A stretch of 64,000 bases of DNA, taken from contig NQYJ01000002.1 in assembly GCA_002285055.1 (NCBI GenBank), forward strand, positions 228,378 to 292,377, given 5' to 3'. The translations under genes were made by a program, and so were the position numbers. This document shows, piece by piece, positions 17,728 to 35,296 of this stretch. The notes under the pieces are model-generated. The model saw nothing but the letters and a program-made list of their open reading frames with translations, searched no databases and was not told the DNA's origin. Position 1 is the first letter of the stretch. Every line of letters begins with the position of its first letter. Origin of the DNA: Candidatus Izimoplasma sp. ZiA1 (GTDB taxonomy: Bacteria; Bacillota_I; Bacilli_A; Izemoplasmatales; Izemoplasmataceae).

Positions 17728-18381
17728 ATGAATGTGAAAATTGATGAAAGACTTAAAGAACTAACTCCTAATTTCAACGTCGGAGTAGTTGAGATGATTG
17801 TTGAGCAAATAGACAGTAAGGAACTCAATGAAACAATCACTCAATTAGAGAATGAAATCTATAAAACAATAGATATAAAAGATGTAGTGAACTTAGATAT
17901 TATCAAAGATGGAAGAGATGCCTATAAAAAATATGGGAAAGATCCTTCAAGATATCGTCTAAGTGTGGAATCTTTATATAGAAGACTTTCAAAAGGAAAT
18001 AAACTTTATAGAATTAATAACATTGTTGATATTGGTAATCTATTATCAATCGTTTCTAGAAAAAGTATCGCAGTTCTTGATTATGATGCAATAAAAGGTG
18101 ATGTCCTTATCCGATTAGGAAAAGCTGATGATGACTATGAAGGTATAGGAAGAGGAAAGTTGAATGTTGAAAAAATCCCTGTTTATGTCGATAAAATATC
18201 AGCGTTTGGGTCAACAACTTCTGATACACTTAGGACTTCAATAAAAATAGATACAAAAAAAATCCTTGTTTTTGTTATCTCTTTCTCAGGTCCTAAATCA
18301 CTTGAATGCGAGATTAAACTTACTAAAGATTTGTATAAACAATTTGCAAATGGTCACATAATTAATGAGTATATTCTTTAG
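17728..18381 (+). CDS. B3/4 domain (PheT-like tRNA-binding) protein
   Basis: A 217-residue stand-alone protein with the B3/B4 domain otherwise found in the phenylalanyl-tRNA synthetase beta chain. The diagnostic stretch is KYGKDPSRYRLSVESLYRR (about residues 70-88), followed by INNIVDIGNLLSIVSRKSIA. In PheT this domain edits mischarged Tyr-tRNA. Free-standing versions are widespread in Bacillota but poorly characterised, so an RNA-binding or trans-editing role is an inference. The gene has a GGTGAT ribosome site and its own terminator. Confidence 0.85.
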   Translation: MNVKIDERLKELTPNFNVGVVEMIVEQIDSKELNETITQLENEIYKTIDIKDVVNLDIIKDGRDAYKKYGKDPSRYRLSVESLYRRLSKGNKLYRINNIVDIGNLLSIVSRKSIAVLDYDAIKGDVLIRLGKADDDYEGIGRGKLNVEKIPVYVDKISAFGSTTSDTLRTSIKIDTKKILVFVISFSGPKSLECEIKLTKDLYKQFANGHIINEYIL

Positions 18382-18403
18382 AGCACAAAAATGTGCTCTT
18401 TTT
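18380..18403 (+). terminator. Terminator after B3/4 gene
   Basis: Stem AGAGCACA (18380-18387) with TGTGCTCT (18392-18399), then T residues. Confidence 0.82.
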
Positions 18404-18443: not shown

Positions 18444-18470
18444 AATTATAAATAACAAGGTGGTGGTTTT

Positions 18471-19934
18471 ATGCGTTCAAGCTCTAATTTATTTCGAAGA
18501 CTTAGTATTATCTTTTTAATACTTTCTTTAGTAACGCTTTTTGTTATAGCTGCCTTGCTGATTCTTAGTATTACAGATGACGCAATTGTGTGCCCTGAGG
18601 ACAGTTTTATCTGCCACTATGAGGAAGAGTTTAGATTTTATCAGAACACAATTGTTGGATTGGGATTAATAATGGCTTTATTGATAATTATGTCAAGATT
18701 CTTTCAACTTCAAATAAAGTATGTAGCTGAATATTCTGGTTATACTAAATCAGTTTCAGAAGAAGAACAAAAAATAATTGAAGAATCTACAAAAGCATCT
18801 TCTGCATTAAAAGAGTATTTTCAACTTCTTGAAGATAAAAAGAATAACAGTCATCAAATGAGTATTGATGATTATGATGAAACAGAGGATGCTGACCTTA
18901 CAGAAGATTCTTTAGAAGAAATGATAACTGATAAAGACTTGATAGATATTTCCTTAGAAACCGAAAAACACAGTAAAAACAAAATTAATTATCCTAGTGA
19001 CTTCGCTGATGAAGACGAGAATAATAGAAAAATAATAGATGAGGAAAAAGAATTAGAAAGCCTAACAGAATCAGCCCCAAATAATATTACTATTGAGCCT
19101 TTAACTACAAAGAGTGATGACATTAAAGATTTAAATGAGTCCAAAGAAGATATATCTACAGAAAAGATAGATAATAAATCTCCAGATTTACTAATTAGAG
19201 ATGCACACATTCAAAAGTCAAGTGCTGAGAGTGAATCAAAAAAAGTTAAAGAGTATTATGTTAGAAAAACAAAATCTGATTTTTATGGAATAATTTATAA
19301 AGAAACAGATCTTAACAAAACAAAATCTAAATTGTTCTTGAACACTTTGCTTAATGTAATAACAGAAGAAATCTCACAAGGGAACATAATAAATATAAAT
19401 GAGTTTGGTAAGTTTAGAAAAGTTAGTTATAAAGAACAACTTAGAATTAACCCAAAAACAGGTAAGAAAATCTCAGTAAAGGCACATTCATTAGCTCGCT
19501 TTTACCCTCACAAGAATTTAAAAGAAATTGTTGATAAAGGGGAACTTGATTTTACTAAAAAATATTTAAAATCAATAAAAATAATTGAACCTAAGATTAC
19601 CACAGAAAACATGAAAAAAGTGGTAAGTAAAAAGTCACAAATTAAAACGCTTACAAAATCAATACACAAAACTGAGATAATTTCAATTATTTCAGCAAAA
19701 TCTTTATTATCAAAAAACAAATCGCAGCAATTTTTAAACGCTTTCATTTCTGTATTAACTAATGAGTTAAAAAGTGGAAATTCCATAAATATTCCGGAAT
19801 TTGGAAAATTCAAAACAGTGAAAAGAGCGCCTAAAGAAGCGGTTAATCCTCAAACGCTTGAACGAATTAAAATAAATGCACACAATTCTGTAAAACTTCT
19901 TTTTGACAAGAATTTTAAAGAAAAAATAAAATAA
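18471..19934 (+). CDS. Membrane-anchored protein with two C-terminal HU domains
   Basis: A 487-residue protein. Residues about 11-34 and 58-78 are membrane helices. RR at 9-10 before the first and an acidic loop with C41 and C48 between them suggest that both termini are cytoplasmic. Residues about 95-260 are a low-complexity acidic, Ser/Asp/Glu-rich linker. Residues about 263-355 and 396-487 each match the HU/IHF fold (KSDFYGIIYKETDLNKTKSK, NEFGKFRK, NPKTGKK; and INIPEFGKFKTV, NPQTLER). Both keep the Asn-Pro of the DNA-intercalating arm. It may tether chromosomal or incoming DNA to the membrane. I know of no named family with this architecture. It is transcribed alone. Confidence 0.82.
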   Translation: MRSSSNLFRRLSIIFLILSLVTLFVIAALLILSITDDAIVCPEDSFICHYEEEFRFYQNTIVGLGLIMALLIIMSRFFQLQIKYVAEYSGYTKSVSEEEQKIIEESTKASSALKEYFQLLEDKKNNSHQMSIDDYDETEDADLTEDSLEEMITDKDLIDISLETEKHSKNKINYPSDFADEDENNRKIIDEEKELESLTESAPNNITIEPLTTKSDDIKDLNESKEDISTEKIDNKSPDLLIRDAHIQKSSAESESKKVKEYYVRKTKSDFYGIIYKETDLNKTKSKLFLNTLLNVITEEISQGNIININEFGKFRKVSYKEQLRINPKTGKKISVKAHSLARFYPHKNLKEIVDKGELDFTKKYLKSIKIIEPKITTENMKKVVSKKSQIKTLTKSIHKTEIISIISAKSLLSKNKSQQFLNAFISVLTNELKSGNSINIPEFGKFKTVKRAPKEAVNPQTLERIKINAHNSVKLLFDKNFKEKIK

Positions 19935-19968
19935 AAAAAATAGGCAAAAAAAACTTGTCTATTTTTTT
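19934..19968 (+). terminator. Terminator after the membrane HU gene
   Basis: An imperfect stem AAATAGGCAA/TTGTCTATTT (one G-T pair) around an A-rich loop, followed by a T-run ending near 19968. Confidence 0.65.
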
Positions 19969-20031: not shown

Positions 20032-21870
20032 ATGCTTTATATAAATACAGCTTTAAACAAAGAAAAGCATTGTGCTTTTTATTTTGGACTAGAAGAATAT
20101 CTAATTAAGGATTTTAATTACGATAATGATATATTTATGCTTTGGAATGTTGAGCCAACTGTAATGATTGGTAGACACCAAATAACTAATCTTGAAATCA
20201 ATAAAGATTACATTGATGAAAACAACATTCATATAGTTAGAAGAAACAGTGGTGGTGGTGCTGTATTTACAGATTTAGGGTGTTTACAGTATTCATTTAT
20301 TACTGATAAAAAGGAACATTCTAAAAATATTTTTGAAAAACATGTTAAACATATAGTTGATGCTGTAAAAGATTTAGGAATTGATGCAACTTTTACAGGT
20401 CGCAACGACATTCTTAGTGATGGTTTAAAATTTTCAGGAAACGCTGAGTATATATACAAAGATAAAATGGTAATGCATGGAACAATTTTGTTTGAGACGG
20501 ATTTTGAGAACCTACTGAAAAGTTTAAATCCAGATAAAATAAAACTAACTTCAAAAGCAATAACAAGTGTCAAAAGTCGTGTTACTAACATTGGTGAAAA
20601 AACAGAACTAACACTAGAAGAATTTTATGACTATCTTGTAAAAAAAATTAAAACTAGTGAAATTAATTATCAAGAACTTGAACTTAGTAAAGTTAATGAA
20701 TACAAAAAGAAGTTTTATTTAGATGAATGGAATTATGGAAAAAACCCTAAGTTTGCATTCACAAAAAAGAAACGTTTTAAAGCTGGAACATTTAGAGTAG
20801 ATATTGATCTAAAAAATAATACTGTAAAAAGTTTAAAACTTAGTGGAGATTATTTTGCGTTTAAAGATATAAAAACATTTGAAGAAGCCTTTTATGGTGT
20901 TTCATTTACTTATGATGAGTTTCTAAAAGTGCTAAAAAAGAATAAAATAAAAGAGTATATTTATTTGATGAAATCATCAAATTTCCTTGAACTTGTCTTT
21001 GATGAAGTAAAAAAGAAAATTTCAAAACCTGATTACTTAAAAGTTAATTTGAAGGATCTTAATAAACAAACATCAAAAATAAAAGCTTTATTAAGTCAAC
21101 ATAACTTACATACAGTATGTCAAGAAGCAGCTTGTCCTAACCAACTTGAATGCTTCTCAAATAAAACTGCGACTTTTATGATTCTTGGTACAAAATGTAC
21201 TAGGAATTGTAAATTTTGTGATGTAACTCATGGTGAACCTGATTTAGTAGATAAATTAGAGCCGAACAACATTCTTAAAGCTGTTGAAGTAATGGGTCTA
21301 AAACATGTTGTTATAACTTCAGTTACTAGAGATGACTTAAAAGATTATGGGGCAAGTCAATTTAAAGATAGTATTTTACTTCTAAAGGATAAGTTTCCAG
21401 AGACAACTGTAGAAGTTTTAATCCCTGACTTAATGGGAGATAAAGAGGCATTAAAGATTATCGTTGATGCTAAACCTGATGTAATCAATCATAATCTTGA
21501 GACTGTTGAAGAACTTTATGAAGGATTTAGAGATAATGCGAATTATCAAAGAAGTTTTAATGTACTAAAAAATGTTAAGGAAATGGATCCATCAATTTTA
21601 ACGAAATCTGGTATTATGGTTGGAATTGGGGAAAAAGAGGAATCTGTATATAAATTAATGGATGATTTAAGGAATATCAACTGTGATATTTTAACTATAG
21701 GACAATATTTAAGGCCATCTTTAAAACATATAGAAGTTACTGAGTATGTAACTGAGGAAATGTTTGAAAAATATAAGAACGAAGGTAAAAAAAGAGGCTT
21801 TAGGTATGTCGCAAGTGGACCACTTGTAAGAAGTAGTTATCAAGCCTTAAAACAATTTGAAGGAGAATAG
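20032..21870 (+). CDS. Lipoate-protein ligase A / lipoyl synthase fusion (LplA-LipA)
   Basis: A 612-residue fusion. Residues about 1-335 are LplA: RRNSGGGAVFTDLG at 66-79, the ligand-binding Lys in GLKFSGNAE (about 135-143), and the C-terminal accessory domain. Residues about 336-612 are LipA: auxiliary cluster C-x4-C-x5-C (CQEAACPNQLEC), radical-SAM C-x3-C-x2-C (CTRNCKFC) and the C-terminal RSSY serine ligand. The ligase can attach lipoate or octanoate, and the synthase can insert sulfur into octanoyl groups. The likely substrate is the GcvH protein encoded two genes downstream. It leads the glycine cleavage operon, 2 bases before gcvT. I see no frameshift or stop at the junction. Confidence 0.92.
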   Translation: MLYINTALNKEKHCAFYFGLEEYLIKDFNYDNDIFMLWNVEPTVMIGRHQITNLEINKDYIDENNIHIVRRNSGGGAVFTDLGCLQYSFITDKKEHSKNIFEKHVKHIVDAVKDLGIDATFTGRNDILSDGLKFSGNAEYIYKDKMVMHGTILFETDFENLLKSLNPDKIKLTSKAITSVKSRVTNIGEKTELTLEEFYDYLVKKIKTSEINYQELELSKVNEYKKKFYLDEWNYGKNPKFAFTKKKRFKAGTFRVDIDLKNNTVKSLKLSGDYFAFKDIKTFEEAFYGVSFTYDEFLKVLKKNKIKEYIYLMKSSNFLELVFDEVKKKISKPDYLKVNLKDLNKQTSKIKALLSQHNLHTVCQEAACPNQLECFSNKTATFMILGTKCTRNCKFCDVTHGEPDLVDKLEPNNILKAVEVMGLKHVVITSVTRDDLKDYGASQFKDSILLLKDKFPETTVEVLIPDLMGDKEALKIIVDAKPDVINHNLETVEELYEGFRDNANYQRSFNVLKNVKEMDPSILTKSGIMVGIGEKEESVYKLMDDLRNINCDILTIGQYLRPSLKHIEVTEYVTEEMFEKYKNEGKKRGFRYVASGPLVRSSYQALKQFEGE

Positions 21871-21872
21871 AT

Positions 21873-22964
21873 ATGAAGAAAACAGTATTATACGATAATC
21901 ATGTAGCTTTAGATGCTAAAGTTGTTGATTTTGCTGGTTTTATGATGCCTATAAGTTATACTTCAATTTCTCATGAACATTCTTACGTTCGTGAAAAATG
22001 TGGTATTTTTGATGTATCTCATATGGGTGAGATTTATGTAAAGGGTAGTGAAGCAGAAAAATTTGTAGATTATATTTTCACAAATGATGTATTAAGTATG
22101 AATGATAATCAAGTTCTTTATGGAATGATGTGTTACCCAACAGGTGGAGTAGTAGATGATCTATTAGTTTACAAGGTGAATAAAGAGTTTTATTTATTAG
22201 TGATTAATGCATCAAATATTGAAAAAGATTATGCTTGGATTTTAGAAAACAATAAATTTGATTGTGTTACATCAAATGAATCAGACAATTATAGTGAAGT
22301 TGCATTACAAGGACCTTTAGCAGAAAAAGTGTTAAGTGAGTTTACTAGTTATGATTTAAAAGAACTAAAATTTTTCACTTTTGATAATATCGTAATCGAT
22401 GGTATTAAGTATTTAGTATCTAGAACCGGTTATACTGGTGAAGATGGATTTGAAATTTACGGAAAACATCAAGATATAGTTAAAGTTTGGGAGTTATTAT
22501 TAAGTAAAGGTGAAGAATATATTGTTCCAATAGGTTTAGGAGCAAGAGATACACTAAGATTTGAAGTTGCACTTCCATTATATGGTAATGAACTTAGTAA
22601 AGATATTACACCTCTTGAGGCCTCACTAGGATTTGCAGTGAAGTTAGAAGCTGGTGATTTTATTGGTAAAGATGTTTTAGTTAAGCAAAAAGCTGAAAAA
22701 ACTAAACGTCGTGTAGTTGGATTAACATTATTAACAAAAGGTATTTTAAGACATGGTTATAAGGTTTATTTTGAAGATAAAGAAGTTGGAGAGGTAACTA
22801 CTGGTTATAAGTCTCCATCAACTAATGAGAGCGTTGCTTTAGCTTTAATTGATAGACCATATGATAAAATGGGGACTTTATTAAAAGTTCAAGTAAGAAA
22901 CAAATTTGTAGATGTAAAAGTTAGAAATAAAAAATTTTATGATAAGAATTATAAACAGGATTAG
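21873..22964 (+). CDS. gcvT: Glycine cleavage system T protein (aminomethyltransferase)
   Basis: A 363-residue GcvT. It transfers the aminomethyl carbon from the lipoyl arm of H protein to tetrahydrofolate and releases ammonia. Family landmarks are VDFAGFMMPISY near the N-terminus, REKCGIFDVSHMGE at about 41-54, the RTGYTGEDGFEIY folate-site segment at about 184-196 and PIGLGARDTLRFE (about 218-230). The length is typical. It follows the LplA-LipA fusion by 2 bases and precedes gcvH by 11 bases, with AGGAGG as the gcvH ribosome site. Confidence 0.96.
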   Translation: MKKTVLYDNHVALDAKVVDFAGFMMPISYTSISHEHSYVREKCGIFDVSHMGEIYVKGSEAEKFVDYIFTNDVLSMNDNQVLYGMMCYPTGGVVDDLLVYKVNKEFYLLVINASNIEKDYAWILENNKFDCVTSNESDNYSEVALQGPLAEKVLSEFTSYDLKELKFFTFDNIVIDGIKYLVSRTGYTGEDGFEIYGKHQDIVKVWELLLSKGEEYIVPIGLGARDTLRFEVALPLYGNELSKDITPLEASLGFAVKLEAGDFIGKDVLVKQKAEKTKRRVVGLTLLTKGILRHGYKVYFEDKEVGEVTTGYKSPSTNESVALALIDRPYDKMGTLLKVQVRNKFVDVKVRNKKFYDKNYKQD

Positions 22965-22975
22965 GAGGAAAAATA

Positions 22976-23353
22976 ATGAGTAAAGTATTAGACGGGTTAT
23001 ATTACACAAACTCACATGAATGGGTGAAAGTAGAAGATGGTTTTGCATATATTGGGATTACTGATTATGCGCAAGAAAGTTTAGGTGAAATCGTATTTGT
23101 TGAGTTGCCTGAAGAAGAAGATCAAGTTAATGCAGGTGAAGAATTTGCTGCAATTGAAAGTGTAAAAGCTGCATCAGATATCTTATCACCAATAACAGGA
23201 ATTATTGTTATGGTTAATGATGATTTAGAAGATTCTCCAGAATTATTAAACGAAGATTCATTTGAAAATTGGATTATCAAAGTAGAAATGGAAGACAGTT
23301 CAGAATTAAATAAACTTTTAAGTAAAGCAGAATACGAAGATATTTTAGAATAG
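22976..23353 (+). CDS. gcvH: Glycine cleavage system H protein
   Basis: A 125-residue GcvH carrying the lipoyl swinging arm. The lipoylated lysine is expected in ESVKAASDI (about residues 61-69), and the flanking ITDYAQESLGEIVFVELPE is characteristic. It shuttles the aminomethyl group among P, T and L proteins. Its modification would depend on the LplA-LipA fusion at the head of this operon. Confidence 0.97.
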   Translation: MSKVLDGLYYTNSHEWVKVEDGFAYIGITDYAQESLGEIVFVELPEEEDQVNAGEEFAAIESVKAASDILSPITGIIVMVNDDLEDSPELLNEDSFENWIIKVEMEDSSELNKLLSKAEYEDILE

Positions 23354-23364
23354 GAGTGATTAAT

Positions 23365-24693
23365 ATGTTCAAATATTTACCTCATACTGAGCAAGAAATA
23401 AATGAAATGTTAGAGGTAATTGGTATCAATGATATCAATGAACTATTTGATGAAATTCCTAACAAATTAAGAAATCATGATTTTGATATACCAAATGCAA
23501 AATCAGAATTGGAAATCCATCAAATCTTTAAAGATTTAGCAAGTAAAAACAAGGAGTTAATACCTTTTATTGGAGCTGGAGCATATGATCATTATACTCC
23601 TTCAATAATTAGACATTTAATTTTAAGACAAGAGTTTATGACAGCGTATACTCCATATCAACCTGAAATCTCACAAGGAACATTACAATATATTTTCGAG
23701 TTTCAAAGTATGATTTCAACTTTAACAAACATGGATGTTGCAAATGCATCTATGTATGATGGAGCTACATCAACAGCAGAAGCAATGTTTATGGCATGTG
23801 GAGCTAAAAAAAGAAATAAAATTCTTGTTTCAAAAACAGTAAATCCAAACATTATTGAAGTTATTAAAACTTATGCACATTACCGTGATATAACAGTTGA
23901 TTTTATTGATCAAGTAGATGGAGCAACAAGCTTAAGTGACTTAGAAGAAAAAATGTCAAAAGATTATGCTGGTGTTATTGTTCAAACTCCAAACTTTTAT
24001 GGAATAATGGAAGATTATAGTGGATTTAAAGAAACTATTGAGGAATACAAAGGATTATTCATAGTTAATAGTGATCCTTCAACATTAACACTTATTAAAT
24101 CTCCTGGTGAATGGGGTGCAGATATTGCCGTTGGTGAATGTCAAACAATGGGTGTACCTTTACAATTTGGTGGACCATATATTGGTTATTTAGCAACTAC
24201 TAAAAAACTGATGAGAAAAATGCCTGGTAGAATTTGTGGTGTTACAGAAGATACTGATGGGAAAAGAGCATTTGTTTTAACTTTGCAAGCTCGTGAACAA
24301 CATATTAGACGTGAAAAAGCAAATTCAAATATTTGTTCAAATCAAAGTTTATTAGCTTTGTTTGTTACTATTTACATGGCTGTAATGGGTGAAAAAGGAA
24401 TTAAAGAAGCTCAAAAGAATTCATATGATGCAACGCATTATTTATTCGAAAAAGTAACAGCTTTAGATAAGTTTGAAGCTGTATATAAAAATGATTTCTT
24501 TAAGGATTGTTTAGTAAGAACAACTTTGGATCCGAAAGTTATAGAAGATAAATTAATTGAAAATGGTATTTTAGGACCACTTTCAATTTCAAAATTTGAT
24601 GAAAATTTAGCTGATTGTTTATTGTTTAGTGCTACTGAAAAACGTACTAAGGAACAAATAGATAAACTAGTTAGTATTTTGGAGGTGCTATAA
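23365..24693 (+). CDS. gcvPA: Glycine dehydrogenase (decarboxylating) subunit 1
   Basis: A 442-residue P-protein N-terminal subunit in the split GcvPA/GcvPB form found in Bacillota. It starts MFKYLPHTEQEINEML, typical of GcvPA. NASMYDGATSTAEAM and the C-terminal LLFSATEKRTKEQID are also typical. With GcvPB it forms the PLP-dependent glycine decarboxylase. ATG 23365 is preferred over GTG 23356 because AGGAGTGA (23352-23359) is correctly spaced for it. It shares one base with gcvPB (TAATG). Confidence 0.95.
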   Translation: MFKYLPHTEQEINEMLEVIGINDINELFDEIPNKLRNHDFDIPNAKSELEIHQIFKDLASKNKELIPFIGAGAYDHYTPSIIRHLILRQEFMTAYTPYQPEISQGTLQYIFEFQSMISTLTNMDVANASMYDGATSTAEAMFMACGAKKRNKILVSKTVNPNIIEVIKTYAHYRDITVDFIDQVDGATSLSDLEEKMSKDYAGVIVQTPNFYGIMEDYSGFKETIEEYKGLFIVNSDPSTLTLIKSPGEWGADIAVGECQTMGVPLQFGGPYIGYLATTKKLMRKMPGRICGVTEDTDGKRAFVLTLQAREQHIRREKANSNICSNQSLLALFVTIYMAVMGEKGIKEAQKNSYDATHYLFEKVTALDKFEAVYKNDFFKDCLVRTTLDPKVIEDKLIENGILGPLSISKFDENLADCLLFSATEKRTKEQIDKLVSILEVL

Positions 24694-26141
24694 TGTATTA
24701 CGATAAATTAGCATTTGAGATATCTAAGAGTGGACATACAGGATACTCACTTCCAAAAAACGTATTTAAAGACTATAAAATTTCTGAATCTTTATTAAGA
24801 GAAGAAAAAATAGTTTTACCAGAATTAACTGAGTTTGAAGCTGTAAGACACTACACAAATGTAAGTTTTAAAAACTTTGGTGTTGAAAAAGGTTTCTACC
24901 CTCTTGGTTCTTGTACAATGAAATACAATCCAAAAATTAATGAGGATATAGCAGCGTTACCTGGATTAAGTAATGTTCATCCTTATCAACCAACTAAAAC
25001 AGTTCAAGGGTTACTAGAAATATACTATAATACTCAAAAAATTCTTTCTGAAATCAGTGGGTTATATGAGTTTACATTAAATCCTTATGCTGGTGCACAT
25101 GGTGAATTAGTTGGACTTATGATTATGAAAAAATTCCATCAAGATAATGGCGACTTTAAACGTACAAAGGTTATTGTCCCTGAATCAGCACATGGTACAA
25201 ATCCTGCAAGCGCAACTGTAGCTGGGTTTGAAAGTGTTGAAGTTAAATCAAATCAAGATGGTACTGTAAATATTGAATCTTTAAAAGAAGTACTAGGTGA
25301 TGATATTGCTGGAATTATGCTTACCAATCCTAATACTATTGGTATTTTTGAAAAAGATATTTTAGAGATTGCTAAGTTAGTTCATGAAGCTGGGGGATTA
25401 TTATATTATGATGGAGCAAATCTGAATCCGTTATTAGGTCAAGCTAGACCTGGGGATATGGGATTTGATATTATGCATATTAATATCCATAAAACATTCT
25501 CAACGCCACATGGCGGTGGAGGACCAGGAAGTGGACCAGTAGGAGTTAATAAAAGATTAGTTCATTTATTACCAAGTCCGGTAGTTAAAAAAGTTAATGA
25601 TAAATTTATTATTGAAGATCAAAATGATACAGCGATTGGTCAAGTTACCCACTTTTATGGGAATATGGCAGTTATCGTAAAAGCATATACATATTTATTA
25701 ACAGTTGGAAAAGAAAACTTAGGTAACATTGGTAGATATAGCGTATTAAACGCAAACTATATTAAAGAATCACTAAAAGATTTATACTTACTTCCAGTTG
25801 ATGAAGTATGTAAACATGAGTTTGTTTTTGATGGGCTTATTGATAAATCTAACCATGTAACGACTCTAGATATTGCTAAGAGAATGTTAGATTACGATGT
25901 TCATCCACCAACTGTTTACTTCCCATTAGTATTTAAAGAATCTTTAATGATTGAACCACCAGAAACTGAATCAAAAGAAACATTAGATTCATTTATTGAT
26001 GTAATGAGAAAAATTGCACTTGAAGCTAAAACAAATCCTGAATTAGTAAAAGGTGCTCCATACAATACGGTTGTTAAAAGATTAGATGAAGCGAAAGCTG
26101 CTCGTAACCCACTAGTAAAATATACGGATTTAATAGAGTAG
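24693..26141 (+). CDS. gcvPB: Glycine dehydrogenase (decarboxylating) subunit 2
   Basis: A 482-residue PLP-containing P subunit. The PLP-lysine lies in NIHKTFSTPHGGGGPGSGP (about residues 263-281). Other landmarks are FYPLGSCTMKYNPK and VHPPTVYFPL. It decarboxylates glycine and loads the aminomethyl group onto lipoyl-GcvH. The start overlaps the stop of gcvPA by one base, and GGAGGTG inside gcvPA supplies the ribosome site. Its own stop TAG overlaps the GTG start of lpd. Confidence 0.96.
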   Translation: MYYDKLAFEISKSGHTGYSLPKNVFKDYKISESLLREEKIVLPELTEFEAVRHYTNVSFKNFGVEKGFYPLGSCTMKYNPKINEDIAALPGLSNVHPYQPTKTVQGLLEIYYNTQKILSEISGLYEFTLNPYAGAHGELVGLMIMKKFHQDNGDFKRTKVIVPESAHGTNPASATVAGFESVEVKSNQDGTVNIESLKEVLGDDIAGIMLTNPNTIGIFEKDILEIAKLVHEAGGLLYYDGANLNPLLGQARPGDMGFDIMHINIHKTFSTPHGGGGPGSGPVGVNKRLVHLLPSPVVKKVNDKFIIEDQNDTAIGQVTHFYGNMAVIVKAYTYLLTVGKENLGNIGRYSVLNANYIKESLKDLYLLPVDEVCKHEFVFDGLIDKSNHVTTLDIAKRMLDYDVHPPTVYFPLVFKESLMIEPPETESKETLDSFIDVMRKIALEAKTNPELVKGAPYNTVVKRLDEAKAARNPLVKYTDLIE

Positions 26142-27478
26142 TGAAAGACGTTGTAATAATAGGTGCAGGTCCAGGAGGTTTTGATACAGCAATATTTGCT
26201 GCAGAACACGGTCTTCAGGTAACACTTATTGAAAAACACATCGTTGGTGGTACATGTTTAAACTATGGTTGTATTCCAACTAAAACATTGTATCAAAACG
26301 CTAAAACAATAAAAAATATGACAGAGTTATCAACGTTAGGTGTTAATGTTGATAACTTTACTGTTGATTATGAGCAAATCAAAAACCGTAAAGAGTCAAT
26401 TGTTAGTAACCAAGTAAAAAATATCTTAACTTCTCTTAAAAAACTTAATGTTAATTTAATAGAAGGTGAAGCAAAAATCATTAACAAGAATGAAGTTATG
26501 GTTAATGATGAAATAATTAAGACTAAAAATATTATAATTGCTACTGGAAGTACACCAAGAATTTTCCCATTTCCTGGAAGCGATTTAGAAATTGTGAATG
26601 ATTCTAAGGGGATATTATCACTAGATACATTTCCTAAAAAAATGATTGTTGTTGGAGCAGGAGTAATTGGTTCAGAGATTGCAACTATCTTTAACTATTT
26701 TGATTCAGAAATTACCCTTGTTGAATATATGGATGAGATTTTACCGCCACTTGATAAAGATATCAAAAAACGAGCTAAAAATTTATATAAACGACAAGGT
26801 ATAAATATATTAACATCATCGACTTTAAAAGAAGTTAAAGAAGAAGATGGGAAATATATAGCAATTATTGAATCTAAAGGAAAATTAAAAGAAATAGAAA
26901 CTGATTATGTCTTACTAGCAACAGGTAGAAAACCATCATTTGGTAATCTAGATTTAGATGGACTAGGAATTGAATACGATCAAAAAGGGATTAAAGTTAA
27001 TAATAACTTTATGACTAGCATTGATGGTGTTTATGCTATTGGTGATGTTACTGGTATTTTAATGTTAGCTCATAAGGCAACTTATGATGGTTATAAAACA
27101 ATATCACATATTCTTAATAAAAAAATGGATATTAATTTTGATTTAGTACCTTCAGTAGTATTTAGTTTTCCTGAAATTGCAAGTATAGGTAAAACTGAAG
27201 ATGAGATGAATGGTGAATATAAAACAAACAAATATCTATATAAAACTAATGCAAAAGCAGAAGCAATGAATGAGACTGATGGTTTTATTAAAATGATTGT
27301 TGATGAAGATAATATTTTAGTAGGAGCACATATTATTGGGGCTCACGCAGCTGATTTAATTCATGAACTTAGTACAATTATTTATAAAAAAATAACGATA
27401 AATGAGTATAAAAACATTATCCATGCTCATCCAACGTTATCAGAAATAATTGGTGAATGTATTAAAGGATTCCATTAA
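26141..27478 (+). CDS. lpd: Dihydrolipoamide dehydrogenase (L protein)
   Basis: A 445-residue FAD-dependent dihydrolipoamide dehydrogenase, the fourth glycine cleavage component. The redox disulfide is in GGTCLNYGCIPTKTL (about 36-50). FAD binds at GAGPGGFDTA, NAD at VGAGVIGSEIAT, and the catalytic His-Glu pair lies in AHPTLSEIIGE near the C-terminus. No lipoyl domain is fused. It begins with GTG overlapping the gcvPB stop by one base, which implies coupled translation. It is probably dedicated to glycine cleavage, as no other 2-oxoacid dehydrogenase genes are in the window. Confidence 0.95.
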   Translation: MKDVVIIGAGPGGFDTAIFAAEHGLQVTLIEKHIVGGTCLNYGCIPTKTLYQNAKTIKNMTELSTLGVNVDNFTVDYEQIKNRKESIVSNQVKNILTSLKKLNVNLIEGEAKIINKNEVMVNDEIIKTKNIIIATGSTPRIFPFPGSDLEIVNDSKGILSLDTFPKKMIVVGAGVIGSEIATIFNYFDSEITLVEYMDEILPPLDKDIKKRAKNLYKRQGINILTSSTLKEVKEEDGKYIAIIESKGKLKEIETDYVLLATGRKPSFGNLDLDGLGIEYDQKGIKVNNNFMTSIDGVYAIGDVTGILMLAHKATYDGYKTISHILNKKMDINFDLVPSVVFSFPEIASIGKTEDEMNGEYKTNKYLYKTNAKAEAMNETDGFIKMIVDEDNILVGAHIIGAHAADLIHELSTIIYKKITINEYKNIIHAHPTLSEIIGECIKGFH

Positions 27479-27502
27479 AAAAAGAGGCGAAAGCCTCTTT
27501 TT
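27478..27502. terminator. Terminator of the glycine cleavage operon
   Basis: Stem AAAGAGGC (27481-27488), GAAA tetraloop, GCCTCTTT (27493-27500), with A and T runs on either side. It also lies at the end of the convergent prepilin gene. Confidence 0.85.
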
Positions 27503-29195
27503 AATTGTAATTAAATTCACTTGCAAAGAATGTCCAAACACCTTCACTTACAATTATACTTTCAAAGTCAGGTATATGATCAAATCGTGTAATATAACTG
27601 CCTTGGGTTATCGGTGAAATCTTAAATCGATTATTCGCATAATTATTACTAGAAGTTGCCCAGTATACCCAACCAATATCTGTTAAGTAACCTTGGAAGT
27701 TATTGATGATTATTCCGTTAACTTGAACTGCGCTCTGATCAACAACTTCAATTGGATTAATCGACCCGCCTTTAGCTAGAGCGTATAAAGAACCATGATA
27801 ATCCATCATTGATTTAACCGCATTAATATAAATTGATTGTTCAGTGAACATAAACGAATCAATTGAATAGTCTCCGTAAGCACTTGATAAGTACTCATAA
27901 TAATGGTTGTTCTCTACTCTAATATTATCTTTACTAAGCAGTGTAAATCCAGCGTTGTTACCTGATGTAGTAATCCCATGATTTTCATTCATATTAATAA
28001 TAGTTTCACCTTTTACAAAGAAAGTACCATCAATATCGACAGAATTTCCAATAAATGTTAAGTTCCCAAGAACAATAAAATTACCATTAAGGTTGATACT
28101 GCTTCTGCTTGTATCAACTGTTAAATTCCCAAGAACGACTAATGCATCAGTGCTTTGCTGGACTGTTAGATTTCTACTAATAGTTAAATCACCATTATAA
28201 ACACTAGAATCTCTAAAAGTTTTATTTCTAGTAAAATTAGCACTTGTAACATTATCATAATAATAGTTGTCAGTTGCTCCCCAAATTACATTCTCGAGAT
28301 TATCCCAAGTTAACTCTTCCCAAGAAGAACTTGTAGTTAAATCTCTTGAATTAGTAGTAGACTCATTTTGAATATATTCAAAGAAATAACTATCATAATC
28401 AAAAGAGGTAAAGAAATCATTAATCTCAATATCACCTTGTAAGCCAGTATCCCCAGAATAGTTATCCCAAGCATCTGTAAATGTACCTTGAGTGACGTTA
28501 TTAACAATTATGCTATCGTTTACAGTATTTCCAGTTGAACTCCAGCATAAAGCTGTACAAAATCTGTAGTCATTTGAATATATATAGGTTTCACTTCCAG
28601 CTGATGTAAAATGTGGAAACGAACTATTTAAAGCACGATATTGACTATAAAGTTCATCATAGAAGAATGGTAAATCAGTAATATATACCTTATCACCAAA
28701 AATTTTAGAATCAGTATAAGTCCCGCCGTTCATAATCAGTGTTCCATCTGTAGCAATATTATATTCGAAAACTTCTGGACTATCTAAGCTTTCTCCATAA
28801 CTTGAAACGTATATTTCTAAATAGATAGTTTTTCCATTAGTTAACAAGTAAGAAAAGTTATATACATAAGTAACAGCTCCATTTGTATGATCACCAAAAT
28901 CAGGATATGAAGGAGTAATATTATCAATTTCAACTCCTAAAGCTTGTTCGATAACTAAAGAACCTGCATTATCAAAATCAATAAAAGTTCCACCATCTCT
29001 AATATAAACTTCAAATTGGTCAGCAGCTTCTTTTATTAAACCTTTAGCTAAACTTTCTTCACTAGTTTGTAAGTTAATCTGATGTGTGTTTGATGAAAGA
29101 TTAATTGTAAGTGCAGCAACACTTGTTAATGAAAATGTTAAAATCGCAATAACTATTAATGCTGAACTTAATATATTTCCTTTATTATTCACCAA
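27501..29195 (-). CDS. Large prepilin-like protein (PilX/GspK type) with solenoid region
   Basis: A 564-residue protein with a type IV prepilin-like N-terminus: a short leader MVNNKG, then NILSSALIVIAILTFSLTSVA. Position 5 of the mature sequence is Ser, not Glu, as in tip pseudopilins of the PilX/GspK type. Residues about 318-408 show short repeated hydrophobic strands (LTVDTS, LNGNFIVLGNLTF, VDIDGTFFVKG) suggestive of a beta-solenoid like bactofilin or adhesin folds. One Cys-x-x-x-Cys pair is present (FCTALCW). It would sit at the pilus tip and could bind a surface or DNA. Last of three co-directional minor prepilin genes. Confidence 0.78.
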   Translation of the reverse strand: MVNNKGNILSSALIVIAILTFSLTSVAALTINLSSNTHQINLQTSEESLAKGLIKEAADQFEVYIRDGGTFIDFDNAGSLVIEQALGVEIDNITPSYPDFGDHTNGAVTYVYNFSYLLTNGKTIYLEIYVSSYGESLDSPEVFEYNIATDGTLIMNGGTYTDSKIFGDKVYITDLPFFYDELYSQYRALNSSFPHFTSAGSETYIYSNDYRFCTALCWSSTGNTVNDSIIVNNVTQGTFTDAWDNYSGDTGLQGDIEINDFFTSFDYDSYFFEYIQNESTTNSRDLTTSSSWEELTWDNLENVIWGATDNYYYDNVTSANFTRNKTFRDSSVYNGDLTISRNLTVQQSTDALVVLGNLTVDTSRSSINLNGNFIVLGNLTFIGNSVDIDGTFFVKGETIINMNENHGITTSGNNAGFTLLSKDNIRVENNHYYEYLSSAYGDYSIDSFMFTEQSIYINAVKSMMDYHGSLYALAKGGSINPIEVVDQSAVQVNGIIINNFQGYLTDIGWVYWATSSNNYANNRFKISPITQGSYITRFDHIPDFESIIVSEGVWTFFASEFNYN

Positions 29196-29210
29196 ATCAC
29201 CTCTTTCTTT

Positions 29211-29795
29211 CTAAATAATAATTGTTGTTGTAAATGTTTGCGTGTCTAATACACTTCCGTTTGGGAGTGTTATTTCAATTTCTAAAGTTAATTCGATAAC
29301 TACATTTTGGTAACCACTTACTGTAGTTCCGTTTATATCAGTAAAACTAGAAGGCTCACCAATTGGAGTAAAAACTAGATTGCTCTGTCCGACAAGTTTG
29401 ACACTTCCAGGATGAACGACTTCTCCATCAAAGAAAATTTGATCAGAACCTTCATTAAAAACTATTAACAAAGTTTCTTCAGATGTATTGTCCCATTTTA
29501 ACTCGCCAGTATCAGGGTCTGCACTAATTTCATAATGAAATAGTTTAACTTCCTTTGTAGAACCATTATCTGTGAATTGAACGTATTGTGGTTCAAATTG
29601 GAAAGTTTGATTTTGTAGATATTCTGATATATAGTACGATTCATTTAATAGTCGATTGTCGTATTCTAAATCAGCTTTTGCTGTTAAAACCATAGTTAAT
29701 AATCCCATTAGCATTGTCAACACAACACTAGTTATTGTAATTGTTAAAAGAAGTTCAAATAAAGTAATCCCTTTTTGATTATTCAAATTATTCAT
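29211..29795 (-). CDS. Minor prepilin, PilW-like
   Basis: A 194-residue prepilin. Leader MNNLNNQKG is followed by ITLFELLLTITITSVVL, with the conserved Glu at mature position 5 and a hydrophobic stem of about 20 residues. The rest is a beta-rich domain with no Cys. It is expected to be cleaved by the prepilin peptidase encoded at 35297-36046. ATG 29795 overlaps the stop of the upstream prepilin gene by 8 bases; an upstream in-frame GTG (29810) is the alternative. Confidence 0.82.
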   Translation of the reverse strand: MNNLNNQKGITLFELLLTITITSVVLTMLMGLLTMVLTAKADLEYDNRLLNESYYISEYLQNQTFQFEPQYVQFTDNGSTKEVKLFHYEISADPDTGELKWDNTSEETLLIVFNEGSDQIFFDGEVVHPGSVKLVGQSNLVFTPIGEPSSFTDINGTTVSGYQNVVIELTLEIEITLPNGSVLDTQTFTTTIII

Positions 29796-30360
29796 TATAT
29801 AAATACCCACTTAATGTAGTTGTACCAAGTTCGCCATCAGCGTATCTAATATAAACTTCAATTCTCAGTAGGTTATCATTAGAAGCTAAGTTTTCTGGGA
29901 TTAAAGCAATTTTATCTCTAACAACCTTAGGGATATCGGTCATGTCTTCACTTAAAATTCTTATTTGATCTGTTGTTAAGTTGTAATTAAATATAAATAC
30001 TCTAAAGTTTTCTTTATCAAAATTCACATTATTCCAGATTGAATCAAAGATTCTACCACATAATGTTTCATCATCATTTACAGTTAAATTAACGCATTTA
30101 TCAACATCAAAATCAATATAGTATTTGTTTGTAATATCATTGGCATCGTTTACTTGATTTCGCAAATCAGAAAAATTCATTTTATCAAAAGCATAAACTG
30201 TAGTTTCACTTACAGTTATTGCGCTCCGTCTATCATGCATTAATCTGTTGATTTCAAAACTGTCTATTAATGTAGTCAATAAAGGGAAAATGATAGCTGT
30301 CGTAATTATTATCATTGCTAGTATTTCAACAAGAGAAAATCCTTTATTATTTTGCTGCAT
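29788..30360 (-). CDS. Minor prepilin, PilV-like
   Basis: A 190-residue prepilin. Leader MQQNNKG then FSLVEILAMIIITTAIIFPL, with Glu at mature position 5, a class III signal peptide. First gene of the minor-prepilin operon, with its own promoter on the minus strand. ATG 30360 is chosen, with GGAGGG about 6 bases upstream; an adjacent TTG codon could extend it by one residue. Two Cys in VDKCVNL and DETLCGR may form a disulfide outside the cell. Confidence 0.85.
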   Translation of the reverse strand: MQQNNKGFSLVEILAMIIITTAIIFPLLTTLIDSFEINRLMHDRRSAITVSETTVYAFDKMNFSDLRNQVNDANDITNKYYIDFDVDKCVNLTVNDDETLCGRIFDSIWNNVNFDKENFRVFIFNYNLTTDQIRILSEDMTDIPKVVRDKIALIPENLASNDNLLRIEVYIRYADGELGTTTLSGYLYNE

Positions 30361-30394
30361 CAATATCCCTCCTTTAATTTAAATAATTCATTTA

Positions 30395-30423
30395 ATTATA
30401 CCACAATCACTTTATTTAGTAAA
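30395..30423 (-). promoter_or_regulatory. Promoter of the minor prepilin operon
   Basis: On the minus strand TTTACT (plus 30418-30423), 17 bases, TATAAT (plus 30395-30400) with an upstream TGG (extended -10), about 35 bases before the pilV-like start. Confidence 0.7.
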
Positions 30424-30500
30424 TTATTAAACAAAACTCATTAATGGCTTAAACTAAATGTTTATGATTATTTAGAAAATATTTAAAAAAACAATGCGAA

Positions 30501-30542
30501 ATTTACAAAGATTTTGTAAATATAGCGGTTTTATAGTATAAT
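30501..30542 (+). promoter_or_regulatory. Promoter of pil operon with overlapping palindromic operator
   Basis: TTGTAA (30514-30519), 17 bases, TATAAT (30537-30542). A perfect palindrome, ATTTACAAA (30501-30509) with TTTGTAAAT (30513-30521) around GAT, covers the -35 box, the usual location for a repressor operator. The leader to ATG 30575 is about 25-30 bases. Confidence 0.65.
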
Positions 30543-30574
30543 ATTACTAAATAATGGATGGACGGGTGATATTT

Positions 30575-31747
30575 ATGAGTACACAGTTTAAAAACAGCAA
30601 TCTTGCATACTACTTATATACATCAGTAATTATTATAGTTGGACTAGCAACTATAGTTATTTTTTGGTTTATGTTTAATGGTTACCGTGCTGGTAATTTT
30701 AATGAAAACACATTACTTGGTAGTGTTTATTTAGGTGGAATTGATAAAGAAGAAGTTAAGGGAAAAGTTGAAGCTCGAGTAAACTCTTGGCTAGGTGACG
30801 ATACAATAGTATTTGAAGCTACTTATCAAGGATATGTTTATGAATTTGATAGAGAGTTATTAGATTTTGATATTGCAAGATCAATTGATGAAATAAGAGA
30901 TGGGATAACTAATGATTTAATTGTAAGTTACTCAGTAGAAAACAGAAATATTGTTAAGAGTGAATTAAGTAATCAAATATTTTTATCAGGTATTAATACT
31001 GAGTTTGATTTAGATGCAGTAGTTGATAAAATTGTTTTTGACGCAAGTTATATGAAATCTTTCTCAAGTGTAGAACTAGAAGATCATTTACTTGATTTTG
31101 ACGCTAGTAAAGTATTAATACATGAAACTACAATTTCTACACCACCCCTATTTGATGTTAATAGCTTATTATTAAATATTAGTAATAATTTAGAAGATTC
31201 AAAAATTATAGTTGATTCTAAAAGTTTATATAGCGTTTTAAATGAGTTGAGTTTAATCTTTGATGATGAGGAAATGACTATTGTTTCTTCAGGAATATTA
31301 GAGAATATTAAATATTCTAATTTTGTTATTCATGAAAGAAGTTACAATTCTGAGATTGATTTTAACACATACAATATTAACAATTTTCCTTTATTTGGAA
31401 AACAAGTAAGAATTGATAATGATTTAGGTGTTGACTTTTCATTCTACAACCCTAATGATTCTGCATATGAGTTTACATTTAGTTTAGTAAGTGCAAATGA
31501 ACTTAAAGTTACAATGAAAGGTCTTAGTTTTGTTGATCAAATTTTTGTAACTGAAGAGGAAACAGAGTTAGGTTTTATTACTCAAGAAACTGATGATTCT
31601 AATTTTGAGCAAGATGGACAATTAGGAAAAATAGTTGAAGTTAATCGCAGAATTATTAACCTATACGGTGAAACTGTATTGGATGGAATTATTGTTTTTG
31701 AATTCTACCCTCCGATTAAAGAAATAATTTTAGAGGATGGAATTTAG
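30575..31747 (+). CDS. Membrane-anchored YoaR/VanW-like protein in pilus operon
   Basis: A 390-residue protein with one N-terminal membrane helix (about 15-36) and an extracytoplasmic remainder. Residues about 44-110 (GSVYLGGIDKEEVKGKVEARV, then EATYQGYVYEFDRELLDFDI) resemble the peptidoglycan-binding repeats of YoaR/VanW proteins. The region NNFPLFGKQVRIDNDLGVDF...YEFTFSLVSANELKVTMKG (about 270-320) resembles the C-terminal part of VanW. The central conserved VanW core is not evident. First gene of the pilB operon; it may anchor the machine in the envelope. The start ATG 30575 is preceded by GGGTGAT; ATG 30554 is less likely. Family assignment is moderate. Confidence 0.55.
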   Translation: MSTQFKNSNLAYYLYTSVIIIVGLATIVIFWFMFNGYRAGNFNENTLLGSVYLGGIDKEEVKGKVEARVNSWLGDDTIVFEATYQGYVYEFDRELLDFDIARSIDEIRDGITNDLIVSYSVENRNIVKSELSNQIFLSGINTEFDLDAVVDKIVFDASYMKSFSSVELEDHLLDFDASKVLIHETTISTPPLFDVNSLLLNISNNLEDSKIIVDSKSLYSVLNELSLIFDDEEMTIVSSGILENIKYSNFVIHERSYNSEIDFNTYNINNFPLFGKQVRIDNDLGVDFSFYNPNDSAYEFTFSLVSANELKVTMKGLSFVDQIFVTEEETELGFITQETDDSNFEQDGQLGKIVEVNRRIINLYGETVLDGIIVFEFYPPIKEIILEDGI

Positions 31748-31768
31748 AAATAAAAAGGGAGTGAAACT

Positions 31769-33457
31769 ATGGCAAGAAATGTACAAAAGCGACTTGGTGA
31801 CGTTCTAGTAGAAGAAGGAATTGTTACTGAAAAACAAATAAATGAAGTGCTAAGAAGAAGAGAAAAAGGCGAAAAAATTGGTGAAGCGCTAATCCGTTTT
31901 GGATTTTGTAATGATTCACAAATAGTTGATGCAATGGAATCTTCATTAGCCATTAGAAGAGTAAATTTAGGTCTCGTTTTTATAGATGAGGCCGTTTTGA
32001 AATTGTTGGATGAAGACTTTGTTACTAAATCAAAAATAATGCCAATAAATATTCATGGCCGTAGAATAGTTATCGCAACAAATGACCCTCTTGATTTTCC
32101 AACACTAGAAAATGTTAGATTAAGAACTGGAATGAATGTTGAACCAGTTTTAGCAACAATTTCAGATATTGAAACTGCGATTGCGAGATATTACGGTTTT
32201 AGTAAAACTTTAAAAAGTTTAGGTATTGAAGTTGAAAAAGAGAAAAAAGATGAAGAGAAATTTTATGAAGAGATTTTAGCTGATGCAGAGGAAGATGCAA
32301 ATGAATCTCCAATTATTCAGTTAGTTAATCAAATACTATTAACAGCTGTAAAAACTGAATCTTCAGATATTCATATTGATCCAACAGATATTGAATTTAA
32401 AATTAGATATCGTATCGATGGAGTTTTATCAACTGAAAGAGTTTTACCAAAAGTAATTTTGCCAAAACTTATCTCAAGAATTAAAGTAATGTCTCATATG
32501 GATATAACAGATACAAGAACACCTCAAGATGGTAGGATAAAAACTATAATTGAAGGTCGACCTATTGATTTGCGTATTTCAACTTTACCAACAGTACGTG
32601 GTGAAAAATGTGTTCTTAGGGTTTTAGATTTATCAAGGGATTCAACTGGTATTGATCGTCTTGGGTTATCCGAATATGAAGAAGAAGTATTTAGGAGATT
32701 AATTAGTAGACCAAATGGAATTGTTTTAGTAAGTGGTCCAACAGGATCAGGGAAAACAACTTCATTATACGCCAGTTTAGATGAGTTAAATCACGATGAC
32801 GTGAATATAATTACAGTAGAAGATCCTGTGGAAATTGAGTTAGAAGGAATTAACCAGGTAAATGTTAATCCGGATATTCATTTTACATTTGCTAATGCTT
32901 TGCGTTCAATTCTACGTCAAGATCCAAATATTATAATGGTTGGGGAAATTCGTGATACCGAAACAGCACAAATAGCGGTTAAAGCCTCTTTAACTGGACA
33001 TTTGGTTTTAAGTACTATTCATACTAATAGTGCAATAAAAACCGTCACAAGACTTGTGGACATGGGAATAGATTCATTCTTAGTAGCAAGTTCGCTTTCT
33101 GGGGTTATTGCGCAGAGGTTAGTTAGAAAAGTGTGTCCTTATTGTTCGAAAGATGTTGAGCCTACCGAAAGTGAAAAGGAAATATTTAAAAGAAATAAAA
33201 TCAAAGTTGATAAAGTAAAAAGAGCTGTGGGTTGTGCTGTTTGTAACAACAAAGGGTATAAAGGTAGAACTGCAATCTTTGAAATTTTAGAAATTAGTGA
33301 TGAGTTAACGAGAATGGTTTCTAATAAACGTCATGAATATGAATTATTAGAACAAGCAACAAAAGAAGGTACTAAACTCCTAATAGAAGCTGGACTTGAA
33401 AAAGTTAAAGCTGGAATTACTACTTTAGAAGAAGTACTTAAAGTTAGTTTGGATTAG
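31769..33457 (+). CDS. pilB: Type IV pilus assembly ATPase PilB (GspE family)
   Basis: A 562-residue extension ATPase. An N-terminal MshEN domain (RLGDVLVEEGIVTEKQINEVL) covers about 1-145. The ATPase part has Walker A SGPTGSGKTTS near 321-331, an Asp box and a Walker B-like IIMVGEIRDTETAQ near 390. A zinc-binding tetracysteine (VCPYC near 454 and GCAVC near 490) identifies PilB/GspE rather than PilT. It powers pilin polymerisation from the cytoplasm. The upstream gene ends 21 bases earlier; pilC follows after 10 bases. Confidence 0.95.
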   Translation: MARNVQKRLGDVLVEEGIVTEKQINEVLRRREKGEKIGEALIRFGFCNDSQIVDAMESSLAIRRVNLGLVFIDEAVLKLLDEDFVTKSKIMPINIHGRRIVIATNDPLDFPTLENVRLRTGMNVEPVLATISDIETAIARYYGFSKTLKSLGIEVEKEKKDEEKFYEEILADAEEDANESPIIQLVNQILLTAVKTESSDIHIDPTDIEFKIRYRIDGVLSTERVLPKVILPKLISRIKVMSHMDITDTRTPQDGRIKTIIEGRPIDLRISTLPTVRGEKCVLRVLDLSRDSTGIDRLGLSEYEEEVFRRLISRPNGIVLVSGPTGSGKTTSLYASLDELNHDDVNIITVEDPVEIELEGINQVNVNPDIHFTFANALRSILRQDPNIIMVGEIRDTETAQIAVKASLTGHLVLSTIHTNSAIKTVTRLVDMGIDSFLVASSLSGVIAQRLVRKVCPYCSKDVEPTESEKEIFKRNKIKVDKVKRAVGCAVCNNKGYKGRTAIFEILEISDELTRMVSNKRHEYELLEQATKEGTKLLIEAGLEKVKAGITTLEEVLKVSLD

Positions 33458-33467
33458 GGGTGAACAT

Positions 33468-34694: not shown

Positions 34695-34728
34695 AGTAGA
34701 ATCTAAGTTCTATAGTACGCTATTAATA

Positions 34729-34757
34729 TTGACAACTAGCCATTTTAGTGGTATATT
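34729..34757 (+). promoter_or_regulatory. Strong promoter of the major pilin gene
   Basis: TTGACA (34729-34734), 17 bases, TATATT (34752-34757). The leader of about 45 bases ends with TATGGAGG and a 7-base spacing to ATG 34806. It allows high pilin expression independent of the pilB transcript. Confidence 0.8.
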
Positions 34758-34805
34758 AGATTTAGAATTTACTCAAAAAATTATACAATTTATGGAGGTA
34801 TTATA

Positions 34806-35213
34806 ATGGTAAAAAATAACAAAGGGGTAACTTTAACTGAATTGTTAATCGTTATCGTAGTAATGGGAATCATCGCAGCTTTCAGTGTTCCAGCTGTAGG
34901 ATCAATTATTGAGAATACAAAAAAAGATGCTGTATTAGCAGATGCTTTAACTATTGAATCAGCTGCTAAATTATATTGTTCATCAAACTCTTGTTCAACA
35001 ACTCAATCTTTATCAAAAACTGAATTAGCTACTTATATTCAAGGATTAGATGTTGCAGCTACACCAGCTACAGCTGCTAAGTATATTGATGATTATACTG
35101 CTGTATTAGGTAGTGGAGACTGGACAGTAACTTTAAACGCAGGTGGACTAAGTGAATATGAATTTACAGGAGTTCCATCACAATCAAGTAGAAGCGACGT
35201 AGCAAACAAATAA
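34806..35213 (+). CDS. Major type IV pilin
   Basis: A 135-residue pilin. Leader MVKNNKG is cleaved before VTLTELLIVIVVMGIIAAF, with Glu at mature position 5. The globular part is small, Ala/Thr/Ser-rich, and has a short Cys pair (YCSSNSCS, about 58-65) that can form a disulfide loop. It has its own promoter and strong ribosome site, followed immediately by a terminator, which fits the structural subunit. The small size is typical of monoderm pilins or pseudopilins (ComGC-like size, but with a full C-terminal domain). Confidence 0.9.
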   Translation: MVKNNKGVTLTELLIVIVVMGIIAAFSVPAVGSIIENTKKDAVLADALTIESAAKLYCSSNSCSTTQSLSKTELATYIQGLDVAATPATAAKYIDDYTAVLGSGDWTVTLNAGGLSEYEFTGVPSQSSRSDVANK

Positions 35214-35243
35214 AAAAAGAATGAATTTCATTCTTTTTTTTTT
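35213..35243 (+). terminator. Terminator after the major pilin gene
   Basis: Stem AAAGAATGAA with TTTCATTCTTT around 35216-35236, followed by a long T-run. It separates pilin from the pilD gene. Confidence 0.82.
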
Positions 35244-35296
35244 GCTAAATATGGCTATTTATTTATAAATAGTGTAAAATATAAGTGGTGATATGA

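Follow-up and report, generated by a model that had tools for sequence, protein, structure and literature searches.

Several bacterial proteins are described as bringing DNA to the membrane. Rv3852 of Mycobacterium tuberculosis binds DNA while a helix holds it at the membrane, and it makes the nucleoid more diffuse (PMC8233713); in Bacillus subtilis, Noc recruits DNA to the membrane (PMC4331003) and RacA brings chromosomal DNA there (PMC6593407). The protein considered here is encoded in a 64,000-nucleotide stretch of the genome of Candidatus Izimoplasma sp. ZiA1 (the window). By prediction from its sequence it resembles Rv3852 in joining a membrane anchor to a DNA-binding-type domain on the cytoplasmic side; Rv3852, in turn, is not an HU protein, has a C-terminal anchor and KAAK/PAAK repeats, and is confined to slow-growing mycobacteria. 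With Noc and RacA the likeness lies in chromosomal DNA being brought to the membrane, as we propose for the window protein. Noc binds specific sequences and reaches the membrane via an amphipathic helix, the folds of Noc and RacA are unrelated to HU, and Pfam found no ParB_N domain (PF02195), by which Noc would be recognized, in the window protein.

Ordinary HU (hup) has the same fold and arm tip as the window protein but is small, soluble and single-domained; canonical HU comprises some 90 residues, whereas the window protein has 487 and two hydrophobic helices. Two HU-superfamily domains, likewise predicted to be cytoplasmic, also occur in the CCDC81-like membrane proteins of Bacteroidetes, with the order HU-HU-TM-SPOR (PF18174, PF18175 and PF05036; a design seen by Pfam in two proteins, with the hydrophobic stretch located by eye), for which Burroughs et al. 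reportedly proposed a partitioning role in 2017. These have one helix and a SPOR domain beyond it, whereas the window protein runs TM-TM-linker-HU-linker-HU, with canonical PF00216 domains and no SPOR domain detectable by Pfam. It scores 15.9 bits against PF18175, below the cut-off of 35, and does not match PF18174; among 12 members of its family, all match PF00216, nine PF18175 (best E 1.7e-9) and two PF18174 (E 1e-3). An earlier sequence-only reading of this locus knew of no described system of such architecture. This holds only for the exact domain order and does not extend to the general design, which is shared with the Bacteroidetes proteins and Rv3852. Titles and the opening lines of abstracts yielded no description of a two-helix membrane-anchored HU protein, and an earlier mention elsewhere is possible.

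The gene and the predicted architecture of its product

The open reading frame (18471 to 19934, forward strand, as are its parts, the hairpins on either side and the two adjacent genes) begins with ATG and is preceded by a ribosome-binding-site-like AAGGTGG at 18457-18463. A PF00216 scan of the genome (1.88 Mb, 99.8% complete) gave three matches, namely the tandem domains, which lie in one open frame (82.1 and 72.3 bits), and an ordinary HU, a 97-codon frame on a separate contig (C7) after a gpsA-like gene assigned by eye. Upstream lies a gene for a B3/4 domain protein (PF03483; 17728-18381), followed by a terminator-like hairpin with a U run at 18380-18399, and a second hairpin with a U run stands 3' of the HU gene at 19934-19968 (-12 kcal/mol, z -6.17; missed by a pattern scan for terminators). 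Since such hairpins flank it on both sides, the tandem HU gene probably has its own transcript. Downstream, a lipoate ligase-lipoyl synthase fusion recognized by Pfam (20032-21870) opens a run of lipoate and glycine-cleavage genes that extends from 20032 to 27478, in which gcvT was assigned by PF01571 and the other later genes from the letters. After the glycine-cleavage genes comes a type IV pilus-like cluster (27501-36000, beginning about 7.5 kb downstream of the HU gene), with prepilin-like frames recognized by eye and a T2SSE ATPase match at 32297-33439.

Pfam places PF00216 in two stretches of the protein (E 3e-40 for the whole). Its N-terminal part comprises two predicted transmembrane helices, residues 11-31 (18501-18563; mean hydropathy 3.07) and 60-80 (18648-18710; mean hydropathy 2.0), joined by a short, putatively outer loop of residues 32-59 with Cys41 and Cys48 (18564-18647). 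There follows an acidic, largely disordered linker, residues 81-263 (18711-19259), in which 49 D/E stand against 23 K/R between residues 91 and 263 and a helix is modelled at 97-127. HU domain 1 covers residues 264-356 (19260-19538; tip Asn327-Pro328) and HU domain 2 residues 396-487 (19656-19931; tip Asn459-Pro460), each with a net charge of +11, and between them lies a linker of residues 357-395 (19539-19655). A full-length AlphaFold2 model (10 rows, pTM 0.25) has helices at 2-35 and 52-88, with low confidence (pLDDT below 50) for 126-264 and 358-397. In a model of residues 255-487 (single chain, six rows) both domains show the HU order of elements, at pLDDT of about 75-88 over most of each, and the stretch connecting them is disordered. 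The best Foldseek match of this part is the HU chain 5lvt (E 1e-7, TM 0.83 by target length), and the top matches are HU/IHF chains. Pfam, AlphaFold2 and Foldseek agree on the fold of the HU/IHF superfamily (PF00216), with beta-ribbon arms, each tipped by a proline (Pro328 and Pro460). The two full HU modules, intact Asn-Pro tips, two-helix anchor and long acidic linker that had been read from the letters are therefore all borne out at the level of sequence, and both HU folds are found within residues 263-487.

On which side of the membrane the HU part lies was judged from charge. Summed over 21 proteins (20 HU proteins and one anchor-only relative, with two incomplete rows and three that were duplicated or nearly so set aside), the loop has 31 lysines and arginines, compared with 67 before the first helix and 50 in the 15 positions that follow the second; two cysteines are present in 18 of the 21 loops. 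Because these counts follow the positive-inside pattern, the HU part is predicted to lie inside the cell on a hairpin anchor with both ends in, as the sequence-only reading had supposed. The opposite arrangement, in which the HU domains would catch extracellular DNA as a surface receptor, might appeal because some relatives degrade extracellular DNA (PMC8289736, PMC8397711). It runs against the charge pattern, and were helix 1 removed as a signal, helix 2 would still keep the C-terminus inside, so that we regard it as highly improbable.

Distribution, neighbours and constraint in Izemoplasmatales

In a survey of 90 genomes of the order, counting as a tether gene any PF00216 match in a frame of at least 228 codons, such genes turned up in 19 of 49 genomes from the window's family and in none of 41 from the other two families. 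The contig stops before the anchor in G020 and G032, both among the 19, and a twentieth genome of the family, G005, has a fragment at a contig end. The carriers include Candidatus Izemoplasma acidinucleici MAG-BB-5 and Candidatus Izimaplasma HR2, whose protein stands in the public record as "DNA-binding protein HU 1". Searches of a 5.8-billion set gave three to four rows each among the matches listed, two of them from a capped set of candidates and one from 105 candidates. The searches across class and phylum likewise speak for the best matches listed, so further HU fusions are possible; among these matches, two small genomes of another family (G258 and G282; family f12, genus g144) show an HU expansion, with 15 and 9 PF00216 matches.

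In 18 of the 19 genomes, the window's included, the tether gene stands just upstream of lplA-lipA and/or gcvT, even where other neighbours differ; in the remaining one, G081, the contig ends too soon. Such a placement would suit an IHF-like regulator that sits in the membrane, senses a signal at the outer loop and acts on the neighbouring lipoate and glycine-cleavage genes. Against this, the flanking hairpins suggest a separate transcript, the order of the wider region is conserved as well, and the G005 fragment sits away from its gcvT. Moreover, gcvT occurs in 75 of the 90 genomes, 56 of them without a tether gene (19 of 19 with and 56 of 71 without, counts blurred by incomplete genomes). A regulatory role is, in our view, unlikely.

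The earlier suggestion that the protein receives DNA entering the cell, taken here to cover both uptake and DNA feeding, fared unevenly. It is favoured by the presence of DNA-degrading species in the order and by the pilus-type cluster downstream in the window, and a rise of comE/comF on DNA is recorded in Hujiaoplasma (PMC10470597). A pilus-type ATPase scoring above 400 bits is found in 47 of the 90 genomes, namely in 16 of the 19 with a tether gene versus 31 of the 71 others, so that the association is weak and not exclusive; ComEC, present in 79, is equally common in genomes that have the tether gene (17 of 19) and in those that lack it (62 of 71), all of these counts being blurred by incomplete genomes. 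Neither ComEC nor GcvT, then, tracks the tether gene over the 90 genomes, and the pilus ATPase does so in part. DNA enters the cell as a single strand and HU favours the double-stranded form, which further disfavours such a receiver, and we consider it quite unlikely. Competence, DNA uptake, pilus and ComEC go unmentioned in the accessible part of PMC8289736.

In a GcvT tree of 37 rows (250 residues, midpoint root, with G019 and G026 on long branches, G086 dropped for length, and genomes with gcvT outside the loci used absent, among them the tether genomes G010 and G081), every one of the 17 HU-bearing rows lies, together with the anchor-only G011, within a single fork (23 rows, support 100/99). 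The fork also holds G003, G018 and G034, which have no tether gene, and two rows left unscored. Since the tether rows cluster in this way, the simplest reading would be a single gain followed by few losses. The order survey and the loci indicate loss in some relatives, which, together with its absence from the 41 genomes of the other two families, makes the gene dispensable.

HU domains vary in number among the relatives, from none (G011) through one (G081, G082 and G017) and two to three or more (G020, truncated where its contig stops), and the inter-HU linkers span 24 to 221 residues. The sequence-only reading had envisaged an intramolecular HU pair as the working unit. The relatives with one HU domain or none argue against such a dimer being needed in general. 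For the window protein itself the models allow either answer: in the six-row fragment model (pTM 0.33) the two domains are not packed as a dimer, and its overlay on single-chain IHF gave 24.6 Å rmsd. The tandem as such is old in most of the clade, because in the HU-domain tree HU1 of the window protein groups with other first domains (91/85) and HU2 with other second domains (96/87); the domains of G002, G007 and G021 make a separate group. The anchor-only version of G011 (L109:5952-6371, 140 residues) keeps the two loop cysteines and the syntenic place before gcvT. Another variant, that of G029 (L035:7508-9094), has a long Pro-Glu repeat, possibly a rod-like spacer, in its inter-HU linker of 140 residues. 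HR2 encodes in addition another membrane protein, distinct from the tether, which carries a single HU domain of the same type at its C-terminus (G027:C21, L050:7077-8219; PF00216 E 6.2e-18), whose gene lies, by eye, between signal-peptidase-like genes and near small secreted-looking proteins.

Selective constraint was compared in five pairs. In the closest, HR2 and CSMAG_300, dN/dS was 0.12 for the anchor, 0.14 for HU1 and 0.10 for HU2, versus 0.29 and 0.63 for the linkers, and the other pairs were mostly alike (linkers 0.24 to 0.50, anchor 0.10, HU2 0.17 to 0.19; dS saturated in G029/G022). The pair G035/G007, where dS is saturated in one domain, is the one of the five in which the anchor (0.29) evolved no more slowly than a linker (linker 1, 0.28). 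The HU1 value of 1.09 for G006/G082 rests on 27 codons, as G082 has no HU1.

Whether the HU domains of this family bind DNA throughout is less uniform a matter. Both HU domains of the window protein are strongly basic (pI 10.0 and 10.2). At 13 sites a basic residue is present in at least 70% of 19 ordinary HUs, a reference set made up of those loci, out of 31, that matched a pattern; HU1 keeps five of these sites and HU2 seven. Among the last HUs of the family the tip proline is present in 21 of 21 proteins, and positions 3, 18 and 58 hold a basic residue in 19, 19 and 21 of them, compared with 0, 4 and 1 for the arm positions 53, 55 and 64; the first HU has the tip proline in 16 of 20. Several orthologues have acidic last HUs (G022, pI 5.1; G029, 5.0; G016, 5.3), and HU1 of G022 and of G029 has a net charge of -8 and an altered tip. 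As several orthologues thus have neutral or acidic HU domains and the arm positions are rarely basic, DNA binding may not be family-wide. The HU of Escherichia coli is described as binding linear DNA weakly by a phosphate lock and bent DNA via its arms (PMC7283360); we infer that the residue pattern of the tether proteins would fit the former mode better than the latter.

These departures bring in the main rival to a chromosome tether, namely that the HU fold has been reused as a protein-protein module, with anchored HUs pairing with ordinary HU or with each other in a membrane scaffold that makes minor contact with DNA. The acidic or neutral domains and lost arm arginines of several orthologues speak for it, as does the incomplete retention of the first tip proline. 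The strongly basic HU domains of the window protein and the invariant proline of the last HU speak against it, and we hold a scaffold to be rather unlikely.

Two-helix HU proteins in a second family

Two-helix HU proteins also came to light when the family profile was run over 392 genomes of the phylum; they occur in genomes whose frames must be read with TGA as Trp (family f6). Among the matches listed, 12 of 60 genomes of this family carry at least one, seven of them in genus g32, one in g107 and four in g164, and the 12 include the wall-less laboratory organism Mesoplasma florum L1. The charge pattern is the same when 13 proteins are summed (K+R 48 before the first helix, 16 at the loop ends and 47 after the second helix), with single proteins varying. 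In the main M. florum copy (441 residues) the HU domain is matched with E 5e-25 and the linker matches a histone-H1-like HC2 model with E 3e-11. The available part of a characterisation paper on M. florum (PMC7745072) leaves nucleoid, histone and DNA-binding unmentioned.

The main M. florum copy adjoins mnmG (TIGR00136), and mnmG neighbours were seen by eye beside two-helix HU genes in three further genomes (G179, G191 and G387). In many Bacillota, parA/parB and noc lie beside mnmG-rsmG. Six single-contig g32 genomes have one copy at a distance of 13.5-20.1 kb from the end of a contig that opens with dnaA (checked by Pfam in M. florum, G167, and by like letters in the other five); if the contigs are circular, this copy is near oriC. 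ParB_N was found in none of the 12 tether genomes by a profile search over the 60 f6 genomes. The family thus splits into 12 genomes with the tether and without ParB, 42 with ParB and without a two-helix HU among the matches listed, and six with neither, two longer frames of G523 not being included. This complementarity is striking, but it may reflect few evolutionary events. One genome with ParB, G385, has two adjacent longer HU proteins (246 and 228 residues; L180:3127-4833) without membrane helices.

In an unrooted HU-domain tree (68 rows, 93 columns) the Izemoplasma tethers, the f6 tethers and ordinary HUs form three groups, which would be compatible with one origin or with two for the two sets of tethers. 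By eye, paralogous two-helix HU genes of the Mesoplasma group and of G350 directly adjoin long frames (about 990-1200 residues) that have a hydrophobic helix at the C-terminus (L172, L173, L174 and L177), and others, at L176, L182 and L183, lie close to lipoprotein-like genes. Tether genes beside surface-protein genes might hint at membrane-coupled expression.

A predicted chromosome-membrane tether

Taken together, HU proteins that carry a predicted membrane anchor make up a genuine and conserved family, and the likeliest role of the window protein, which we rate as about evenly poised between right and wrong, would be that of a chromosome-membrane tether holding DNA at the inner face of the membrane. 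That the nucleoid is held at the membrane had been proposed at the outset, and the anchor, its orientation and the HU folds agree with it at the level of sequence. The hairpin anchor would sit in the membrane with both termini inside, and the long flexible linkers would let the HU domains reach into the nucleoid, where their hold on double-stranded DNA would be weak and show little preference for sequence. Neighbouring molecules could pair with one another as homodimers, or the protein could form mixed dimers with ordinary HU. Acting in large numbers, such weak tethers would keep the nucleoid spread along the membrane and, in cells thought to lack a peptidoglycan wall, would aid the separation of the two chromosomes during growth of the envelope.

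The tether reading is supported by several lines of evidence: by the HU domains and their fold, the predicted topology, conservation within one clade, constraint on anchor and HU domains, and the tip proline and basic residues kept in the last HU; by the recurrence of the same design on other anchors, in the second HR2 protein and in the 12 of 60 f6 genomes, with the placing of one copy relative to the contig end in six g32 genomes and the absence of ParB_N from the 12; and by the fact that the principle has been shown elsewhere, for Rv3852 and Noc. It is weakened by the neutral or acidic HU domains of several orthologues, by the rarity of basic residues at three arm positions and by coexistence with ParB in the window's family, by the dispensability of the gene and the G035/G007 pair with its anchor no slower than the linker, and by the pilus ATPase being commoner in tether genomes, which fits the uptake rival. 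ParB coexists with the tether in 17 of the 19 genomes with long HU frames in the window's family. Replacement of ParB was accordingly rejected for that family, and the complementarity is confined to f6.

A further step would be to see the tethered HU as a segregation device of wall-less bacteria, the Mesoplasma-group copy, adjacent to mnmG, near oriC and in genomes from which ParB is gone, having replaced ParABS/Noc; we put this forward tentatively, as possible though doubtful. For the parting of chromosomes in cells with neither ParB nor a wall, a membrane-fixed HU would offer a simple physical answer. For the biology of HU itself, a textbook soluble protein is extended to a predicted membrane-anchored architecture that varies in the number of its HU copies and recurs in two bacterial families.
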